DNA of 64,000 nucleotides from Sulfuricystis multivorans (GTDB taxonomy: Bacteria; Pseudomonadota; Gammaproteobacteria; Burkholderiales; Rhodocyclaceae): positions 1,426,001-1,490,000 of the forward strand of contig NZ_AP018718.1 of assembly GCF_003966565.1 (NCBI RefSeq), written 5' to 3'. Every line of letters begins with the position of its first letter. Position 1 is the stretch's first letter. Under the pieces are notes generated by a model that ran no database searches, had not been told where the DNA came from, and saw nothing but the letters and a program-made list of their open reading frames with translations. A program made the translations under genes and the position numbers. This document shows positions 11,361 to 22,034 of the stretch, piece by piece.

Positions 11361-13334
<1,974 letters not shown>

Positions 13335-13900: not shown

Positions 13901-14323
13901 TCAGCGCCTTGCGAGCCAAAGGCGTGGGGTGAGCGCTGCGACGACGGGCGCGGCACGCTCGATCATTTCGTCATCCAAGCTCACGAGCGGCTCGCACCGC
14001 AAGGCGGCCAGCGCGACATAGACGGCATCCCCACCCCGCAGGCGCAGCTCGGCCGCCAGACGTGCCGCTTCGTTGGCCAGCGTCACATCGATGGCTACCC
14101 CATTGACCCATGTTTTGGCTGCAATCGTGTCAACGACCTTCTGCCCCTGGGCGGCATCCTGACAGCGCCGCGCCACCGCGCCGGCAATTTCCGCCCACGC
14201 CAGCAAGGGCACGGTCGCGATGCTCTGCTCCAGCACGAGCCGATGGAGGAAATCGAGACAATCGCGGTGGCGCGGCTCGTCTTGCAGCACGCTGGCGATC
14301 CACACCGAAGCATCGACGATCAT
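13901..14323 (-). CDS. PIN-domain ribonuclease, VapC-like toxin
   Basis: 140 residues with the PIN-domain plan: MIVDASVWIASVL at the N-terminus (first acidic residue D4), a central Glu in LLAWAEIAGAVARR, and C-terminal RGGDAVYVALAAL plus SLDDEMIERA, supplying the other acidic residues. VapC toxins cleave RNA. The ATG shares one base with the stop of the upstream ribbon-helix-helix gene (TGATG), typical of vapBC. It ends 2 bp before the pgsA ATG. Confidence 0.9.
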   Translation of the reverse strand: MIVDASVWIASVLQDEPRHRDCLDFLHRLVLEQSIATVPLLAWAEIAGAVARRCQDAAQGQKVVDTIAAKTWVNGVAIDVTLANEAARLAAELRLRGGDAVYVALAALRCEPLVSLDDEMIERAAPVVAALTPRLWLARR

Positions 14324-14604
14324 CAGTCGAAATCCCGGCGTGCCTCGCGTAACGCTGCCACGGCATCCTGCGGCCCCTGCCAGCGCGGCGCAACCTCGGC
14401 CGCCAGTCGTTCGAGTTCGGCGACGAAAGCTTCGGCCTCTTTTCGCCGCGATGTCTCATCCATGTCTTTGATGGCCGACGCCCCTGCCCCCACTTCACGT
14501 TGCAGCAGATTCGTCAGCCAATCCTTGACGCTCTGCCCCTTCAAAGCCGCAGTCGCCTTGACCTGTCGATACAAATCGTCGGGCAGTTCCAGTGTGGTTT
14601 TCAT
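14323..14604 (-). CDS. Ribbon-helix-helix antitoxin, VapB-like
   Basis: 93 residues. The N-terminal MKTTLELPDDLYRQVKATAA is a ribbon-helix-helix DNA-binding segment; the acidic, Glu- and Trp-containing C-terminus would wrap the toxin. The start MKTT was chosen over an ATG four codons upstream because it matches the usual onset of the beta strand. Upstream is the end of the uvrC region's opposite neighbour gap (14605-14649), which holds AT-rich ATAAATATGGATTTATGG, a possible promoter/operator for autoregulation. Confidence 0.85.
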   Translation of the reverse strand: MKTTLELPDDLYRQVKATAALKGQSVKDWLTNLLQREVGAGASAIKDMDETSRRKEAEAFVAELERLAAEVAPRWQGPQDAVAALREARRDFD

Positions 14605-14649
14605 GCCAAGTCCCATAAATATGGATTTATGGCCAATGCTAGACAGGGT

Positions 14650-16440
14650 TCAAGCCGAATGCAAGCTGCGGTAGATGTTTTCCGCCAGATGCCGGCTGAT
14701 GCCGGGCACCCGGCACAGATCCTCGACCGTGGCTGCTTTCACTCCCTCCAGTCCGCCGAAATGGGCGAGCAAGCTGCGCCGGCGAGCCGGACCGATGCCG
14801 GCCACCTCTTCCAACGCCGAACGCCCGCGCGCCTTGGCGCGCCGCGCGCGATGGCCGACGATCGCGAAGCGATGCGCCTCGTCGCGAATCTCCAGGATCA
14901 GATGGAAGCCGGCGTCGTCAACGCCCAATTCTAGCGGCTGCTTGCGCCCATGCACGAACAAGGTTTCCAGGCCGGACTTGCGTCCCTCGCCCTTGGCAAT
15001 GCCGACGCTTAGGATGTCGGAAAGTCCCAGCTCGGCGAACACCTCGCGCGCCACGGCGTGCTGGCCCTTGCCGCCGTCGATCAAGACCAAATCGGGACGT
15101 GCCGTCTCGGAGCCGCCGAGTTTCTCGTAGCGCCGCTTGAGCGCCTGGCGCATCGCCGCGTAATCGTCGCCCGGCGTGACGCCGGCAATGTTGAAGCGGC
15201 GATATTCGCTTTTTTTCATCGCGCCATCGACGCAGACGACGCAGGAAGCCACCGTGCCCTCGCCCATCGTATGACTGATGTCGAAGCACTCGATGCGGCG
15301 CGGCGCCTCGGGCAAATCGAGCGCGGCGCGCAAGGCTTCCAGCCGCTCGGCGGCGCGGCCGCGGCTTTGCCGGCGCATCGCCAGCGCAAGACGCGCATTG
15401 TTCCTCGCCATCTCGAGCCAAGCGCGCTCCATCGCGTTCTTCGCCGTACCGATGGCAAGCCCCGCCGGCGCTTCTTCCAACGGCCACGGCTCGACGATCA
15501 ACCGCGGCGGCGCAGTATGGTCGGCATAGTGCTGTTCGAGGAAGGCGATCAGCCCCTCTGCGGCAGCTGCCTCACCCTCCATCTGCGGAAAATACGCCCG
15601 ATCGCCCAGATGCAGCCCGCCGCGCACCATCGCCAGATTGACGCACAGCTCGCCGTGCTCGCTCACCGCGACGACGATATCGACATCGAGCGCCTTCGTC
15701 GCGCTCACATACTGGCGATGCAGCACCGCCTGCAAGGCGCGAATCTGGTCGCGCAAGACGGCCGCCTGCTCGAAGCGCAATGCCGCGGCGGCATCTTCCA
15801 TCTGCTGGGTGAGCCGCTCGATCACCTCGCCATGCCGCCCCTTCAGGAAAGCCTCGGCCAAGCGCACATCCTCGGCATAGTCCTCGGCCGAGACGAGCCC
15901 CACACACGGCGCCTTGCAGCGACCGATTTGATACAACAGACACGGCCGGGAACGGTGCGCGAACACCGCCTCCTCGCAGGTGCGCAAGCGGAAGGTCTTC
16001 TGGATCAACTGAATCGCCTCACGCACCGCCAGACTGCTGGGATAAGGCCCGAAATAGCGCGATTTCTTCTCGAAAGCGCCACGATGATAGAAAAGGCGCG
16101 GGAACATGCCGCCGGAAAGCCCAATGTAGGCATAAGACTTGTCATCGCGGAACAGGATGTTGTATTTCGGCTTGAGCGTCTTGATCAGCGTATTTTCGAG
16201 GATCAACGCCTCGGCCTCGGAGCGCGTCGCAGTCGTCTCGACCCCGACGACCTGCTGCAGCATCAGCCTGATGCGCGGGCTGTGATCGCTCTTCTGGAAA
16301 TAGCTCGAAACCCGCTTCTTCAGGTTTTTCGCCTTGCCGACGTAGAGCACCGCGCCGTCGCGCGCGAGCATCCGATACACCCCCGGCGCTTCGGTCAGGG
16401 TAGCAAGAAAAGTTTTGGGGTCGAAAACGAAATCGTTCAT
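14650..16440 (-). CDS. uvrC: UvrABC system protein C (excinuclease subunit)
   Basis: Makes both incisions in nucleotide excision repair. 596 residues: GIY-YIG nuclease domain at the N-terminus (APGVYRMLARDGAVLYVGKA), a Cys-containing linker (FAHRSRPCLLYQIGRCKAPC), the UVR helix pair near residue 200, an RNase H-like C-terminal nuclease (DLVLIDGGKGQ), and helix-hairpin-helix motifs at the end (EEVAGIGPARRRSLLAHFGG). Start MNDFVFDPKTFLATL is canonical. It lies immediately downstream of the broken integron integrase. Confidence 0.97.
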   Translation of the reverse strand: MNDFVFDPKTFLATLTEAPGVYRMLARDGAVLYVGKAKNLKKRVSSYFQKSDHSPRIRLMLQQVVGVETTATRSEAEALILENTLIKTLKPKYNILFRDDKSYAYIGLSGGMFPRLFYHRGAFEKKSRYFGPYPSSLAVREAIQLIQKTFRLRTCEEAVFAHRSRPCLLYQIGRCKAPCVGLVSAEDYAEDVRLAEAFLKGRHGEVIERLTQQMEDAAAALRFEQAAVLRDQIRALQAVLHRQYVSATKALDVDIVVAVSEHGELCVNLAMVRGGLHLGDRAYFPQMEGEAAAAEGLIAFLEQHYADHTAPPRLIVEPWPLEEAPAGLAIGTAKNAMERAWLEMARNNARLALAMRRQSRGRAAERLEALRAALDLPEAPRRIECFDISHTMGEGTVASCVVCVDGAMKKSEYRRFNIAGVTPGDDYAAMRQALKRRYEKLGGSETARPDLVLIDGGKGQHAVAREVFAELGLSDILSVGIAKGEGRKSGLETLFVHGRKQPLELGVDDAGFHLILEIRDEAHRFAIVGHRARRAKARGRSALEEVAGIGPARRRSLLAHFGGLEGVKAATVEDLCRVPGISRHLAENIYRSLHSA

Positions 16441-16471
16441 CGTAAAAAATCGGCGCTGGCGAAACGGCAGC

Positions 16472-17029
16472 TCAGAACCGATCCAGCGGGCTCAGAACCC
16501 TGCGCCCGCCGCGATCGAGCACGTGGGTGTAGATCATCGTCGTGCGCACATCGCTGTGACCCAGAAGCTCCTGCACCGTGCGGATGTCATGGCCGGATTC
16601 GAGCAGATGCGTGGCAAAGGAATGACGCAGCGTGTGGGGTGTGGCACAGCTTGGCCAGCCGTGCGGCCACCACCGCCTTCTTCATCGCCCGCTGCAGGAG
16701 ATTCTCATCGATGTGATGCCGGCGAAGAACGCCACTGCGTGGATCAACCGAGTGCGATCCCGAGCAGAACACATACTGCCAGCCCCATGCGCTGGCCGCA
16801 AGCGGATATTTCCTTGCCAGCCTACCCCCAGCTCGCGCGGGTAGCACTTGCCAAGCAAGAGGATGAAGCGCCGTATCCAATGCGCATATTGATTTTCCGT
16901 GCGGATCGAGTAATGTTTCATCCGCAGCCGTGCCCGCACCTGGTCGAGCAGTTTCGGCGGCCTGGGGGCGTCGGGCGAAGCGGTAGGTGTGATATCTGGA
17001 GAAGGCATAGACGAAGCCATACGATTCAA
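16472..17029 (-). pseudogene. Integron integrase (IntI-type tyrosine recombinase), deleted and frameshifted
   Basis: Three blocks in three frames resemble one integrase. (1) From 17029: PPKLLDQVRARLRMKHYSIR, the N-terminal SAM-like domain. (2) Near 16820-16650: KYP..ASAWGWQYVF and SVDPRSGVLRRHHIDEN, the insertion characteristic of integron integrases. (3) From about 16650 to the stop at 16472: [38 protein letters not shown], with catalytic Arg, His and Tyr. About 130 central residues are missing between blocks 1 and 2, and a small frameshift lies near 16645. It cannot be functional. Confidence 0.88.
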
Positions 17030-17097
17030 TCGGTTGCTTTGGTTTCGGCTTAGTAGACATTCCGACCATAGGATTTATACACCTTTTTCTGTGTTCA

Positions 17098-17110
17098 CTA
17101 GACGTTATGT
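17098..17110. other. Candidate attI/cassette boundary
   Basis: ACTAGACGTTATG lies between the integrase start and the first cassette gene. GTTATGT at 17104-17110 fits five or six of the seven GTTRRRY core-site positions, and the first cassette gene begins 19 bp later, the usual spacing. This is inferred from position; the attI integrase sites were not resolved. Confidence 0.4.
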
Positions 17111-17128
17111 TCTTTCTGGAGTTGAAGC

Positions 17129-17827
17129 GTGAGAGGTAATGTCATCTCCTACATTGAAATGTGCCAGAAAGAGGGCACGAGTTTGCAACGAGGGATGAAT
17201 TTTCGCCTGAGGGGACGTCACTCAGTCATTCTTATGTCCGTTCGTCCTAATTCCCCGTATCGAGACGAGGTTCAGGATGACGGCGCTGTACTGATATACG
17301 AAGGGCATGATGAGCCAAAACGAAAAGGCATTTCTGACCCAAAATCTCTCGATCAACCAGAGCGGCAACCTGGAGGCACTCTTACTGAGAACGGTAAGTT
17401 TCACCGAGCCGCACAACTGTTCAAAGCAGGAAAAAAAGGGCCTGATATTGTTCAGGTATACGAAAAGATCAAAGCCGGTATTTGGACCGACAACGGATTC
17501 TTCCATCTCGTCGATTCTTGGATCGAGAACGACGGCATTAGGAACGTTTTCAAATTCAAACTCGTGGCTGTAGAAGGCGTATCTGACGAATCAGCACCAG
17601 AAGATGATGTCAATCGTCTGGTTGAGCCTAGTCGCATTATCCCAACTAACGTAAAGCTTGAAGTATGGGCTCGCGACGGTGGCAAATGCGTGATGTGCGG
17701 AGCAACCGATGAACTGCACTTTGATCACATCCTCCCCTTCTCGAAGGGTGGCACATCGCTGAAAGCTGAGAATATCCAGCTACTCTGTGCACGCCATAAT
17801 CTAAGAAAAAGTGCGAAGATTGAATGA
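17129..17827 (+). CDS. SRA/YDG-like plus HNH endonuclease (integron cassette gene)
   Basis: 232 residues. The N-terminal part (about 27-155) resembles SRA/YDG modified-base-binding domains: GRHSVILMSVRPNSPYRD, GAVLIYEGHDEP, GIWTDNGFFHLVDSW and NVFKFKLV. The C-terminal HNH domain (about 175-230) has VWARDGGKCVMCGATDELH, FDHILPFSKGGTS and NIQLLCARHNLRKS, with Cys pairs and the catalytic His. Such fusions are known as type IV-like restriction enzymes acting on modified DNA; this role is inferred here. The GTG start has GGAG 8 bp upstream. Its stop is followed at once by half an attC. Base composition is lower in GC than the flanking core genes. Confidence 0.82.
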   Translation: MRGNVISYIEMCQKEGTSLQRGMNFRLRGRHSVILMSVRPNSPYRDEVQDDGAVLIYEGHDEPKRKGISDPKSLDQPERQPGGTLTENGKFHRAAQLFKAGKKGPDIVQVYEKIKAGIWTDNGFFHLVDSWIENDGIRNVFKFKLVAVEGVSDESAPEDDVNRLVEPSRIIPTNVKLEVWARDGGKCVMCGATDELHFDHILPFSKGGTSLKAENIQLLCARHNLRKSAKIE

Positions 17828-17834
17828 AAAACGA

Positions 17835-17879
17835 ACATAACAGGTCGTTCCAGCGGACCGACAAAAAGCTATGTTTTTT
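17835..17879 (+). other. attC site, left half only (cut by IS256-type insertion)
   Basis: ACATAAC (R''-like, 6 of 7) is followed by AGGTCGTTCCAGCGGACCGA, the usual left arm of attC sites, starting 8 bp after the HNH stop. The expected right arm with GTTRRRY is absent; the IS element begins at 17880. Confidence 0.65.
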
Positions 17880-19306
17880 GGAGCCTATCCAGAATTTTGT
17901 GTGTGAGGCATACCATGAGACCTGAAAGGAGGCGGTATGCCGAGCATCAAGAAGACGAAAGTAGCGCCGGTGGTTGAGGCGCCGTATCAAATCAAGCGGG
18001 AAGTGCTGGAGGAACTGATCCCTGGGCCGATGACGGCCGAAGGCGTCGAGTCGATCTTCCGGCAAATCAAGAAAGCGCTGCTGGAACGGGCGCTGAACGC
18101 CGAACTGACCCATCATCTGGGCTACGCCAAGGGCGAAGCGCCCACGGAAGCCGGCAACCACCGCAACGGCAGCAGTCCCAAGACCGTGCTGACCGATGAC
18201 GGGCCGCTGACACTGGATATTCCCCGCGACCGGATGGGCAGTTTCGAGCCGCAAATCATCGGCAAGCACGAACGGCGCTTCACCGGCTTCGACGACAAGA
18301 TCGTTTCCATGGACGCCCGAGGCATGAGCGTACGCGAGATTCAGGGGCATCTGCTGGAAATGTACGCCGTCGAAGTCTCGCCCCAGTTCATCTCCGACGT
18401 CACCGACGCAGTGATGGCTGAGGTGACGCAATGGCAGAACCGGCCGCTTGAGCCGATGTATCCGGTGGTGTTCTTCGATTGCCTGCGCGTCAAGATTCGC
18501 GATGAGGGCACGGTCAGGAACAAAGCGGTCTATCTGGCCCTGGGCGTGCTGCCCGACGGTAGCCGCGATGTGCTCGGGCTGTGGATCGAGCAGACGGAAG
18601 GCGCCAAGTTCTGGCTCAAAGTCTTCAACGAATTGCGTAACCGGGGCGTGCAGGACATCCTGATTGCCGTGGTCGATGGTTTGAAGGGGTTCCCGGAGTC
18701 CATCGAAACGGCGTTTCCGCGGGCGACGGTGCAAACCTGCATCGTGCATCTGATCCGCAATTCGCTCGACGATGTCAGCTGGACGATCCGCAAGGTGGTG
18801 GCCGCGCCCTGCGCCCGGTCTATACGGCACCGACCGAAGCGGCAGCCCGCGAAGCGTTGGCCGCCTTCGAGAATGGCGAATGGGGCCAGAAGCATCCGAC
18901 CATCGCGGCCGCCTGGCACCGCAACTGGGAGCGGGTGATCCCGTTCTTCGCCTTCCCGCTGGACATCCCCGCGTGATCTACACGACGAACGCCATCGAAA
19001 GCCTGCATATGCGCCTGCGCAAGATCATCAAGACCCGCGGCCACTTTCCCAGCGACGAGGCCGCAATCAAGCTACTCTGGCTGGCGTTGCGCAACATCAC
19101 GGCCGACTGGGGCAAGGCCGCCAAGGAATGGAAGGCCGCGATGAATCAATTCGCCATCTTCTATGCCGAACGCTTTACCGAGGCCCGGGGATAGAATGAC
19201 CACCGACTTTCCCACCGCGCCGCTCGCCCCAGGCCATACAAGGGCCGGCGGCGGCACCGTGGAAAAGTCCCTCTCCGCCTCACACACAAAATTTCTGATA
19301 CGCCCC
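17880..19306 (+). mobile_element. IS256-family insertion sequence
   Basis: About 1.43 kb with imperfect terminal inverted repeats of ~30 bp sharing ATTTTGTGTGTGAGGC; the left end reads GGAGCCTATCCAGA and the right, inverted, GGGGCGTATCAGAA. It holds one transposase gene broken by frameshifts. No direct repeat was found at the two ends: the left side is attC DNA and the right side is an IS5-type remnant, so a deletion or recombination has removed one flank. Confidence 0.85.
17937..19194 (+). pseudogene. IS256-family transposase, two frameshifts
   Basis: The reading frame runs MPSIKKTKVAPVVEAPYQ to about residue 280 and includes AELTHHLGYAKGEA, the first catalytic Asp in FFDCLRVKIRDEG and the second in VVDGLKGFPESI. 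At about 18800 the frame shifts (continuing RPVYTAPTEAAAREALAAF, then AFPLDIP) and shifts again near 18970 to VIYTTNAIESLHMRLRKI, which contains the catalytic Glu. Restored length would be about 400-420 residues, normal for the family. RBS AAAGGAGG precedes the ATG. The enzyme is presumably inactive unless the shifts are sequencing errors. Confidence 0.88.
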
Positions 19307-19690
19307 ACGGCCGGCCAATGTTCCCGATAGTGATGCAGTTCCCAACCTCCTGCATGGCAACGAAACCCGCTGCTACGGTGACAGTGCCTACCGGGGCAAG
19401 GCGCGGCGAGAGCGTCTGAAAGAAATCGCCCCCGCGCCAAGGACTTCACCAACAAGCGGGCGTACCGCAATGCGCCTCTGTCCGATGCCGACAAGGAGAC
19501 GAACCGGCGCAAGTCCAGCATCCGTGCCAAGGTCGAGCATCCCTTCCTGATCCTCAAACGCTTGTGGGGCTTCGCCAAGGTCCGCTATCGCGGCCTGGCG
19601 AAGAATGCCAACCGCGCCTTCGCCCTGCTGGCCGCGATCAATCTGCTCAAGCACGGCAGACCCCTGACAGGAGAGGTGCGTCCGGCATGA
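19307..19690 (+). pseudogene. IS5-type transposase remnant, 5'-truncated and frameshifted
   Basis: Encodes the C-terminal part of an IS5-group DDE transposase: HGNETRCYGDSAYRGKARRE with the second Asp, then after a frameshift near 19435 AKDFTNKRAYRNAPLSDADK and SIRAKVEHPFLILKRLWGF with the catalytic Glu. It ends at TGA 19688-19690. The 5' half is missing where the IS256-type element begins. The following ~100 bp up to 19791 contains no recognised inverted-repeat end or gene. Confidence 0.85.
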
Positions 19691-19791
19691 GCCCAATACC
19701 GGGGAATACACCCAGCTTCCATCTCCCAGAGAGCCTTTCCACGATGAAATGTGGTCGCGTTTCGCCATTTCGTCTCAATTCACCACCGTCA

Positions 19792-20301
19792 ATGAAAATC
19801 TCGGCGGCTTGTTCAGTGTTTCCTAAGCTGAATCTGTTGTTACTGATCTCTTTACTCAGCGTACCAGCTGCGTCCTTCGCAGGATGGTTTGGCCCAAGCA
19901 ATTACGATGAGTGCATTTTGGAATCGATGAAAGGGGTTACCAGCGATGTGGCCGCAAGAATGGTTGCGCGTTCATGCCGGGAGAAATTCCCAGACAAGCC
20001 AAAGGCTCAACCGAGATCACGCGAGTTGAATTCTTCTGAGTTGGACCAGATCACAGGACGGGCAGGGATTTCTTTTGGCGATTACTTCGGCGGAACTCTA
20101 TACAACGGCAATGGCGGTATAACTATTTCGCAAATTACTGTTGTTGCAACAACGAAAGAAGGGAAGAAAGATGTTTCTCGAACATACGTTACTGATGTAA
20201 GCATCCCGCCCCAAACTACAGCCGATTTCCATTTCATCATTGTCAAAGGGGACGAGGGGTCAGATTATTCGTGGGGTATCGTAGCTGGGCGTGGATACTA
20301 G
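19792..20301 (+). CDS. Small exported protein of unknown function (integron cassette gene)
   Basis: 169 residues with a signal peptide (LNLLLLISLLSVPAASFAG, cleavage near SFA-G). The mature part has YDECILESMKGVTSDVAA and ARSCREKF with two Cys, then a beta-rich C-terminal half (ISQITVVATTKEGKK, SIPPQTTADFHFII). I do not recognise a function. The start at ATG 19792 was chosen because it places the hydrophobic segment correctly; an in-frame ATG at 19744 would add 16 residues. It is followed 4 bp after its stop by an attC, so it is a gene cassette. Codon use is less GC-rich than in the core genes. Confidence 0.7.
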   Translation: MKISAACSVFPKLNLLLLISLLSVPAASFAGWFGPSNYDECILESMKGVTSDVAARMVARSCREKFPDKPKAQPRSRELNSSELDQITGRAGISFGDYFGGTLYNGNGGITISQITVVATTKEGKKDVSRTYVTDVSIPPQTTADFHFIIVKGDEGSDYSWGIVAGRGY

Positions 20302-20305
20302 TTCT

Positions 20306-20376
20306 CTAAAACTTCGATCAAGCAGGACGCTCCGCCGAAAAGCACGGCTCCGTGCCCCTTACCTTCAACGTTGGCC
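20306..20376 (+). other. attC recombination site
   Basis: 71 bp from CTAAAAC (R''-like) to GTTGGCC (R', 6 of 7 of GTTRRRY). Between them are the arms TTCGATCAAGCAGGACGC and CCCCTTACCTTCAAC around a CGGCTCCGTG-type loop, the usual layout of attC. It separates the exported-protein cassette from the hicAB cassette. Confidence 0.75.
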
Positions 20377-20406
20377 CCATGAGAAGGGCCATGGCATACT
20401 TGGCGC

Positions 20407-20595
20407 ATGAAAGTTACCGACGTTTTGGAGCTTCTACGTAAAGATGGCTGGGAGCTGGTTGCAATCAGAGGTAGCTATCGTCAGTTCAAACATTCCACGA
20501 AGCCTGGGCGCGTAACTGTAGCCGGAAAACCAAGCGCTGATTTGGCAGCGGGAACACTCAACAGCATTCTCAAACAAGCGTCTTTGAAAGGTTGA
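20407..20595 (+). CDS. hicA: HicA-like mRNA interferase (toxin), with altered catalytic His
   Basis: 62 residues with the double-stranded-RNA-binding-like HicA fold: MKVTDVLELLRKDGWELV, then GSYRQFKHSTKPGRVTV, and GTLNSILKQASL. In most relatives the segment reads GSHxQ, where the His is the catalytic residue of the RNase; here it is Tyr. The downstream His in FKH remains. The toxin may therefore be weakened or dead (inference). It lies 30 bp after an attC and 4 bp before hicB. Confidence 0.88.
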   Translation: MKVTDVLELLRKDGWELVAIRGSYRQFKHSTKPGRVTVAGKPSADLAAGTLNSILKQASLKG

Positions 20596-20599
20596 TCTT

Positions 20600-20854
20600 A
20601 TGCGTTATGCCATCGTTATTGAAAAGGCCGGTAGCAATTATTCCGGGTATTCTCCCGATTTGCCTGGCTGTGTGGCGACCGGCACTTCCATCGAGGAAGC
20701 GGAAACCGAGCTTCTCGCTGCAATCCAGTTTCATCTTGAAGGTCTACGCGAAGACGGGTTGGCTCCTCCGCCAGCACAAAGCATCGTCGAGTATATGTTT
20801 GTTCCGGACCAACCCAGCGCTCCAGTGGACGCGCCGCAAGCGGCGCGCCCCTGA
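20600..20854 (+). CDS. hicB: HicB-like antitoxin
   Basis: 84 residues with the HicB partial RNase H-like fold: MRYAIVIEKAGSNYSGYSPD, LPGCVATGTSIEEAE, IQFHLEGLREDGLAPPPAQS. There is no C-terminal ribbon-helix-helix or helix-turn-helix DNA-binding domain, so it is the short form. The last residues, DQPSAPVDAPQAARP, are encoded by the attC that ends the cassette, a common feature of cassette genes. Confidence 0.9.
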   Translation: MRYAIVIEKAGSNYSGYSPDLPGCVATGTSIEEAETELLAAIQFHLEGLREDGLAPPPAQSIVEYMFVPDQPSAPVDAPQAARP

Positions 20855-20869
20855 GCTTCGACGTTAGAC
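20807..20869 (+). other. attC recombination site ending the hicAB cassette
   Basis: 63 bp from GACCAAC (R''-like) to a perfect R' GTTAGAC. The centre is a strong hairpin (GGACGCGCCGC-AAGC-GGCGCGCCC) between arms CCAGCGCTCCAG and CTGAGCTTCG. It overlaps the 3' end of hicB. It is the last recognisable element of the cassette array. Confidence 0.85.
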
Positions 20870-20902
20870 GGTTTGGCCCGAGGACATGTTTTGCGCTCTT
20901 CC

Positions 20903-20926
20903 GTGCCGTCTCGCCAGCGCCGACTT
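20903..20926 (+). repeat. Dispersed 24-bp repeat, intergenic copy
   Basis: Exact match over CCGTCTCGCCAGCGCCGA to copies in pyrG and fabH. It lies just after the last attC and before earP, in a 139-bp gap (20870-21008) that otherwise shows no gene. Confidence 0.7.
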
Positions 20927-21008
20927 CCGCGCTCCGGTCGAGCGTTGGGTTTTGCTTTTCCTCTGGTCTTCGTCGCTAGCGTCGTCCTGCTGAACGAATC
21001 CCCTTCCC

Positions 21009-22034
21009 ATGCCGTCGATCCGCTGCGACCTCTTCTGCCGTGTCATCGACAACCTCGGTGATGCGGGTGTGAGCTGGCGCCTTGCGCGGCAGCTGGCGGT
21101 CGAGTTTGGTTGGCGGGTGCGGCTTTTCATCGATGATCCGGCGCCGATCGGTCTGCTTGCGCCCGGACAGTCGGTCGTCGAGGTGCGGCGCTGGCTGGAA
21201 GATTTTTCGGGCGTCGCAGCGGCGGATGTCGTCATCGAAACCTTCGCCTGTGACCTTCCGCCCGCCTATGTCGCGGCGATGCGCTCGCGCGCGCGGCCGC
21301 CGGTGTGGATCAACCTCGAATATCTGTCGGCGGAGAACTGGGTGGTCGGCTGTCACGGCCTGCCCTCGCCGCAGCAGGGCTTGTCGAAGTTCTTTTTCTT
21401 TCCCGGCTTCGTGCCGGGCACCGGCGGGTTGTTGAAGGAACGCGACTATGCCGCTCCACCAGCGCCGAGTTTCGACGGGCCGCTAAAAGTCTCGCTGTTC
21501 TGTTACGAAAATCCGCAGCTGCCGGCGCTGCTGGAAGTCTGGCGCGACGGGGAGCAGCCCATCTTCTGCCATGTCTGCGCGGGACTGCCGCGCCAGCAGG
21601 TGGAAGCCTGGCTCGGCGCGCCCTTCCCGGTCGGGGCGAAGGTCGAGTGCGGCAGTTTGATCCTCACTGCCCTGCCTTTTCTGCCGCAGACCGAGTACGA
21701 CGCGCTACTGGGGCGTTGTCAGCTCAATTTCGTGCGTGGCGAGGATTCCTTCGTGCGCGCCCAGTGGGCCGAGCGGCCCTTCGTCTGGCAGGCCTACCGC
21801 CAAGCCGAGGACGCGCATCTGGCCAAGCTCGATGCTTTTTTGAGGCTCTATACCGACGATGCGGCAACACATGCCTTTTTCCGCGCCTGGAACGGCGGGG
21901 GCGATCTCGACTGGCCAGCCTTCGCAAGGCGCCTGCCATATCTTGCCGCCCAGGCGCCGGGCTGGGCCAAGCGGATCGCCGCCCAGGGCGATCTGGCGAC
22001 GAATCTGGTCAAGTTCTGCCTGGCTCGGCTATAA
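21009..22034 (+). CDS. earP: EF-P arginine-32 rhamnosyltransferase
   Basis: 341-residue GT-B-type glycosyltransferase that moves rhamnose from dTDP-L-rhamnose to Arg32 of EF-P. Typical features are the N-terminal [19 protein letters not shown] with the catalytic-region Asp, GLLKERDY, and near the C-terminus [20 protein letters not shown]. It is 34 bp upstream of efp, the known genomic pairing. It begins just after the integron array, so the array lies between uvrC and earP. dTDP-rhamnose synthesis genes are not in the window. Confidence 0.95.

Follow-up and report, generated by a model that had tools for sequence, protein, structure and literature searches.

Evidence for a decayed chromosomal integron between the host genes uvrC and earP

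Results

Integrase pieces beside uvrC

The window analyzed in this study is a stretch of 64 kb (G000:C1:1426001-1490000) from a genome of 2.81 Mb in three contigs. The region from 16472 to 21008 in this window, between the host genes uvrC and earP, contains pieces of an integron integrase gene (intI), a predicted attachment site (attI), putative gene cassettes with attC recombination sites, and two insertion sequences. This region is very probably a decayed chromosomal integron, the remnant of an integron of the sedentary type. On the intI side it is flanked by uvrC (14650..16440, minus strand; an open reading frame (ORF) of 596 aa, matched in 60 of 61 genomes including its own), and on the cassette side by earP (21009..22034, plus strand; an ORF of 341 aa, matched in 51 of 61 genomes including its own). 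An initial annotation of the sequence had proposed a decayed integron between these two genes, and the integrase pieces, attI, the attC matches and an intact counterpart in a genome of the same genus (G017) bear this out. The location of the proposed island, 16472..20869, was also correct, but its right end has to be moved to about 21000 owing to a truncated fourth cassette.

Three matches to the integron integrase model TIGR02249 were found on the minus strand, at 16478-16648 (model positions 258-314, 111.1 bits), 16629-16823 (200-263, 68.8 bits) and 16826-16951 (1-42, 29 bits). They correspond to a C-terminal piece (P0001, 16475..16651), a middle piece in another frame (16629..16823) and an N-terminal piece (16826..17029), the last of which was also aligned to the IntI of G017. 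The middle piece carries SVDPRSGVLRRHH and the integron-specific patch DPRSG..RRHH. After the N-terminal piece about 155 codons are missing (model positions 43-199, about 465 bp), and the frame changes near 16640. This is the integrase with an integron-specific insertion, broken by deletion and frameshift, that had been described at the outset. None of the pieces reached the TIGR02249 cut-off of 265 bits on its own, and nothing in the entire genome scored above it. The arginine of box I, a feature of tyrosine recombinases, presumably falls within the lost part. Judged by its sequence, the intI gene of the window is dead, because of the loss of about 155 codons and the frame change, and the locus would therefore be a remnant and not a working integron.

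The pieces were also compared with XerC and XerD. The C-terminal piece scored 113.2 bits against TIGR02249, versus 78.5 bits for XerC and 77.9 bits for XerD. At E <=0.01, the middle piece matched two NCBIfam models, both of integron integrases, and no Xer model. The identities to the intact IntI of G017 were 80% for the N-terminal, 76% for the middle and 93% for the C-terminal piece. A tree with 59 rows was calculated from 57 of the 80 extracted integrases (the second copies L049, L090 and L091 and all entries from L130 onward were excluded) together with the window integrase, whose N-terminal piece (19% of the columns) and joined middle and C-terminal pieces (32%) were entered separately. Both window rows fell into a five-row group with G017, G003 and G006 (support 92, drawn open), which was nested in a six-row group with G018 (support 98). 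The pieces thus group with IntI proteins from the same genus.

The attI site and the uvrC-earP site in related genomes

An attI site was predicted from sequence at 17071..17107 on the plus strand. It is identical at 37 of 37 positions to that of the G017 integron (L046) and at 33 of 34 positions to that of G006. The identity between the window and G017 stops at the GTTA crossover, the entry point of cassettes. The complete genome of G017 has the same order of uvrC, intI, attI, cassettes and earP. Its integron resembles the window locus in position and attI, but differs from it by a full-length intI, five attC sites and other cassettes.

The comparison set comprised 18 genomes of the same genus (G001-G018). 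A full-length intI on a continuous stretch from uvrC to earP was present in two of them, G017 and G016. The IntI proteins of these two genomes are only 67% identical despite 85% identity of their UvrC proteins, and therefore two integrase lineages occur at the uvrC-earP site. In G013 and G003 the site is split over two contigs, one with uvrC and integrase sequence, the other with earP and attC sites; the intI of G013 runs off its contig, and the copy near uvrC in G003 is broken, lies 1.2 kb from uvrC and is 53% identical to the IntI of G017. The empty site, which the initial annotation had suggested looking for in relatives, was present in five of the 18 genomes (G007-G010 and G015), with a gap of about 35-91 bp between uvrC and earP. 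In five further genomes (G001, G004, G006, G011 and G014) the gap measured about 0.66-2.3 kb and contained no intI; in the gaps of G001, G004, G011 and G014 the attC model found nothing. The remaining four genomes (G002, G005, G012 and G018) could not be placed because uvrC or earP was missing or partial.

attC sites

As Rfam gave no match for 16400-21100, even at E 0.5, we built our own covariance model of attC (R1). It comprised 32 sites from nine other loci, and the window, G017 and G016 were excluded from training; two of 34 candidate training sites (L073_10339 and L074_6762) had been removed by eye as spurious. The structure of R1 shows unpaired stem bases, which are typical of attC. On 17 same-genus loci outside the training set, R1 gave 27 matches at E <=1; among these arrays, five matches were found in G017 and 13 in G016, 12 of the latter at E <0.001 (R1 E-values are rough, with a short calibration).

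Applied to the locus, R1 yielded two confident matches, both on the plus strand. The attC of cassette 3 (20807..20869), which overlaps the end of hicB, scored 68.6 bits (E 5e-16) and has both R boxes and a near-complete hairpin, in which two of the 18 pairs are non-standard. The attC of cassette 2 (20304..20376), which contains mismatches, scored 37.9 bits (E 8e-8). No other match was obtained in the 64-kb window at E <=10, and unfiltered scoring of 16400-21100 gave the two sites plus 13 matches of at most 8.2 bits. A first attC heuristic had missed the 20304 site and was dropped; the covariance model recovered it.

In addition, a candidate 5' half of an attC that has lost its right arm is located at 17835..17880 (plus strand). 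It was found with a weight matrix of the 5' arm (19 columns, derived from the attC sites of relatives), by which about 128,000 window positions were ranked: the 20807 site came first and 17835 second, with a score of 14.6. Fifteen sites from unused arrays scored from 2.3 to 24.5, and the matrix therefore misses some real sites. The half site also has an 18/19 bp match within an attC of L047 (E 0.04). Of the attC-like sites initially listed, namely a half site at 17835 and full sites at 20306 and 20807, the two full ones were thus recovered by R1, and the half site was picked up only by the weight matrix. Neither outcome that the initial annotation had named as refuting, an absence of attC model matches or a grouping of the integrase pieces with XerC/XerD, was observed.

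Cassettes and insertion sequences

The HNH, exported-protein and hicAB genes are all encoded on the plus strand and point away from attI. Cassette 1 contains an open frame for an HNH nuclease with an SRA-like N-terminal part (17129..17827; PF01844, 33.6 bits). The protein may be a type IV-like SRA-HNH restriction nuclease: its HNH domain is clear, its SAD_SRA match is weak (14.9 bits, cut-off 30.7), and three of five members of its family match this domain, with a best E-value of 5e-5. Its structure prediction was poor (mean pLDDT 51.9) and was not used as evidence. Full-length relatives were detected in four of 273 other genomes of the class sample, and the nearest of them (G062, L171, 74% identity) has an attC within 10 bp downstream (26 bits, E 6.5e-5). 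PADLOC gave weak restriction-enzyme and effector-nuclease matches for the HNH protein (best E 5e-4), and no matches for eight other ORFs, three from the window and five from the G017 array.

Cassette 2 (19744..20301, start uncertain) encodes a probable exported small protein with a signal-like N-terminus as judged by eye; it has a weak match to NF041602 (25 bits, cut-off 65), and no Pfam family scored above its cut-off. Cassette 3 carries the hicA toxin gene (20407..20595; PF07927, 65.1 bits) and the hicB antitoxin gene (20600..20854; PF15919, 41.1 bits). A Gallionella integron contains a hicAB pair (69% and 56% identity) between attC matches, one of which is cut by the end of the locus. The approximately 140 bp from the last attC to earP align with the start of six G006 cassettes of about 313-326 bp, so that the array appears to have been cut inside a fourth cassette, of which the 5' part (20864..~21000, plus strand) is left, truncated against earP.

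Two insertion sequences lie between the first attC and cassette 2. An IS256-family element (17881..19306, plus strand) has a broken transposase frame (NF033543 in two frames), and contig C2 carries a second copy with 98% identity; no target duplication around the window element was seen by eye. The window element is followed by an IS5-family transposase remnant (19307..19690, plus strand), about the last third, which matches NF033581 at positions 180-214 and 217-284 of 285 in two frames. The first attC lacks its right half and the IS5-family element its left part, which points to a deletion adjoining the IS256-family element. A search of plasmids gave 138 records, and the 20 listed all matched over the IS256-family element. 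The genes and the common direction proposed for the cassettes (SRA/HNH, exported protein and hicAB) were retained, with a weak SRA half, whereas 17881-19690 is not cassette DNA.

The GC content was 46-49% at 17000-17999 and 48-52% at 19750-20749, compared with 60-67% in uvrC and earP. At about 60-64%, the integrase remnant and the greater part of the insertion sequences do not share this drop, and the low GC content is therefore confined to the cassettes; the description of the locus as a lower-GC island applies to these alone. Outside the locus, a pair of small genes with the look of a vapBC-type toxin-antitoxin system, as judged by eye, lies downstream of uvrC (13901-14616, minus strand).

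Alternative explanations

Several observations speak against a decayed integron. The 5' R box of the 20304 attC is damaged, the half site at 17835 gave no covariance-model match, and in the 5' arm ranking an unrelated position, 26607, scored 11.3, level with the 20304 site. No attC was seen near the other three of the four full-length HNH relatives. A simple scan found no promoter-like site (Pc) at attI. The R1 search of the whole genome returned no third attC, and further weak sites may exist in the genome because only 150 of 2,492 first-look candidates were scored. In addition, wrongly assembled bases could account for the shifted frames of intI and of the IS256 transposase, though hardly for the large deletion in intI.

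The locus might instead be a genomic island in which insertion sequences brought together unrelated accessory genes, while the attC sites are chance hairpins and the integrase pieces a fragment of a Xer-like recombinase. The two insertion sequences inside the locus and its uneven GC content would fit such an island, yet we consider it highly improbable: the two attC sites (E 5e-16 and 8e-8) are the sole ones in the window and the sole ones returned from the scored part of the genome, the integrase pieces are integron-specific, and G017 has an intact integron at this position. It is also barely conceivable that this is a working integron whose intI only seems broken through assembly errors. Small indel errors could cause the frame changes, of which intI has one and the IS256 transposase at least one, but such errors do not explain the absence of about 465 bp of intI or a first attC without its right half. 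Thirdly, an integron integrase arriving from other cells could still mobilise the array in trans. The nearly complete hairpin and both R boxes of the 20807 attC favor this, as do the IntI proteins above cut-off elsewhere in the genus; the genome itself, however, has no integron-integrase match above cut-off, and a well-preserved right-hand attC is found at cassette 3 only, cassette 1 having a half site. Mobilisation in trans is thus unlikely.

For a decayed integron, the following history can be envisaged. An ancestor would have carried intI and attI beside uvrC, and IntI would have inserted cassettes at attI. A deletion of about 155 codons and a frame change would then have disabled intI. The IS256-family element would have landed at the first attC, with loss of neighboring DNA including most of the IS5-family element, and the distal end of the array would have been cut within a cassette and joined to earP. 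Because their own IntI would be unable to move them, the HNH nuclease, exported-protein and hicAB genes are probably fixed passengers. As a toxin-antitoxin pair, hicAB may help to keep the array.

Integrons and a 22-bp repeat across the genus

IntI proteins above cut-off were found in 13 of the 18 same-genus genomes, and integrons are therefore common in the genus. Another broken intI, consisting of two adjoining pieces in different frames, was observed at G014:C354:5249-6039. Besides uvrC, the neighbors of intI include a ThiF-family gene (by Pfam in G006, G018 and one G012 copy, by DNA in G003), TauE (by Pfam in G002, G007, G009 and G015, by DNA in the second G012 copy) and a transglycosylase gene (by Pfam in G001, by DNA in G011). 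GidA was identified by Pfam behind TauE in G007 and, in G010, at a distance of about 1 kb from intI. The second intI copy of G009 is located elsewhere. In the tree, in which several branches are open, different IntI lineages occupy the uvrC-earP, ThiF-family and TauE-GidA sites. The two integrases at the transglycosylase-gene site are 89% and 68% identical to that of G017.

A dispersed repeat of 22 bp, GCCGTYYCGCCAGCGCCGAYTT, lies beside many of these intI genes. Genome-wide counts allowed up to two mismatches on both strands, and a reversed-pattern control gave 0-1 copies. The repeat has 300 copies in this genome, 201-694 copies in 17 of the 18 same-genus genomes and none in G005. Two of 18 same-family genomes contain 498 and 690 copies, the other 16 at most five, as does each of 24 genomes of the same order. 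In the window, one copy lies between the intI stop codon and uvrC (16447..16469, minus strand), one inside the fourth-cassette remnant (20904..20926, plus strand) and one at 11677..11699 (plus strand), and nine further copies were found with up to three mismatches. Of 76 copies that were placed, 47 lie within genes, with kept positions in earP and uvrC, and 29 are intergenic. In G006, six cassettes of the same family stand in one array (L055, 2943-8447), each with a copy of the repeat near its start.

With up to four mismatches allowed, the repeat starts no more than 45 bp from the last codon of intI in 13 of 17 listed intI copies (L046, L047, L049, L051, L018, L068, L019, L028, L022, L034, L044, L033 and L073) and in the window, or in 14 of 18 copies that are related and not independent, compared with 12 of 246 other genes in a control with our own crude gene calls. 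It was absent from this distance at the G003 copy beside uvrC, in G018, at the first G012 copy and at the second G009 copy. The idea that the repeat marks an insertion target beside intI was not regarded as established, as its orientations are opposite at different sites and it is also found behind the 12 other genes of the control. In G001 and G009 a copy lies upstream of uvrC without an integron, and there it is therefore not integron-borne. From its sequence and distribution the repeat looks like a DNA-uptake signal; the alternative would be a REP-like element. A ComEC-type competence gene is present, and no literature on an uptake signal sequence in Rhodocyclaceae was found. It is conceivable, though rather doubtful, that the genus swaps whole integron platforms at a few fixed sites via natural transformation steered by this repeat; the differing integrases at shared host sites and the closeness of the repeat to intI would fit such a process.

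Discussion

Decayed chromosomal integrons are already known as a kind, and the window locus is classed with them because inactivated intI genes are reported in two papers (PMC2426708 and PMC12444791). In an early survey (Nemergut 2008; sequences available in 2007), close to a third of the intI genes were, like that of the window, pseudogenes (PMC2426708). In Xanthomonas, an integron is present genus-wide at a fixed host gene, ilvD, and intI is often inactivated by frameshifts, stops or large deletions, after which the arrays are more stable; in X. arboricola, a divergent intI stands at one locus beside a nearly identical ilvD. It is also described for Xanthomonas that intI is now and then replaced at a single locus (PMC12444791). 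The Xanthomonas integron and the window locus share the fixed host gene and the inactivated intI. They differ in that the present host genes are uvrC and earP, in what appears to be a Sulfuritalea-like beta-proteobacterium, and in that several host sites are used within one genus. No description of the locus was found in titles and abstract openings among the matches listed for integron literature with uvrC, Rhodocyclales or Sulfuritalea.

With the empty, intact and decayed states of one integron site present within one environmental genus, the arrival, use and death of an integron become traceable. The locus also offers an example of cassettes frozen in place, one with a nuclease gene and another with a toxin-antitoxin pair. 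If integron platforms were indeed exchanged within the genus, the dead integron of the window would have lost out in one such exchange, and if the 22-bp repeat is an uptake signal, the movement of sedentary platforms becomes a testable question.

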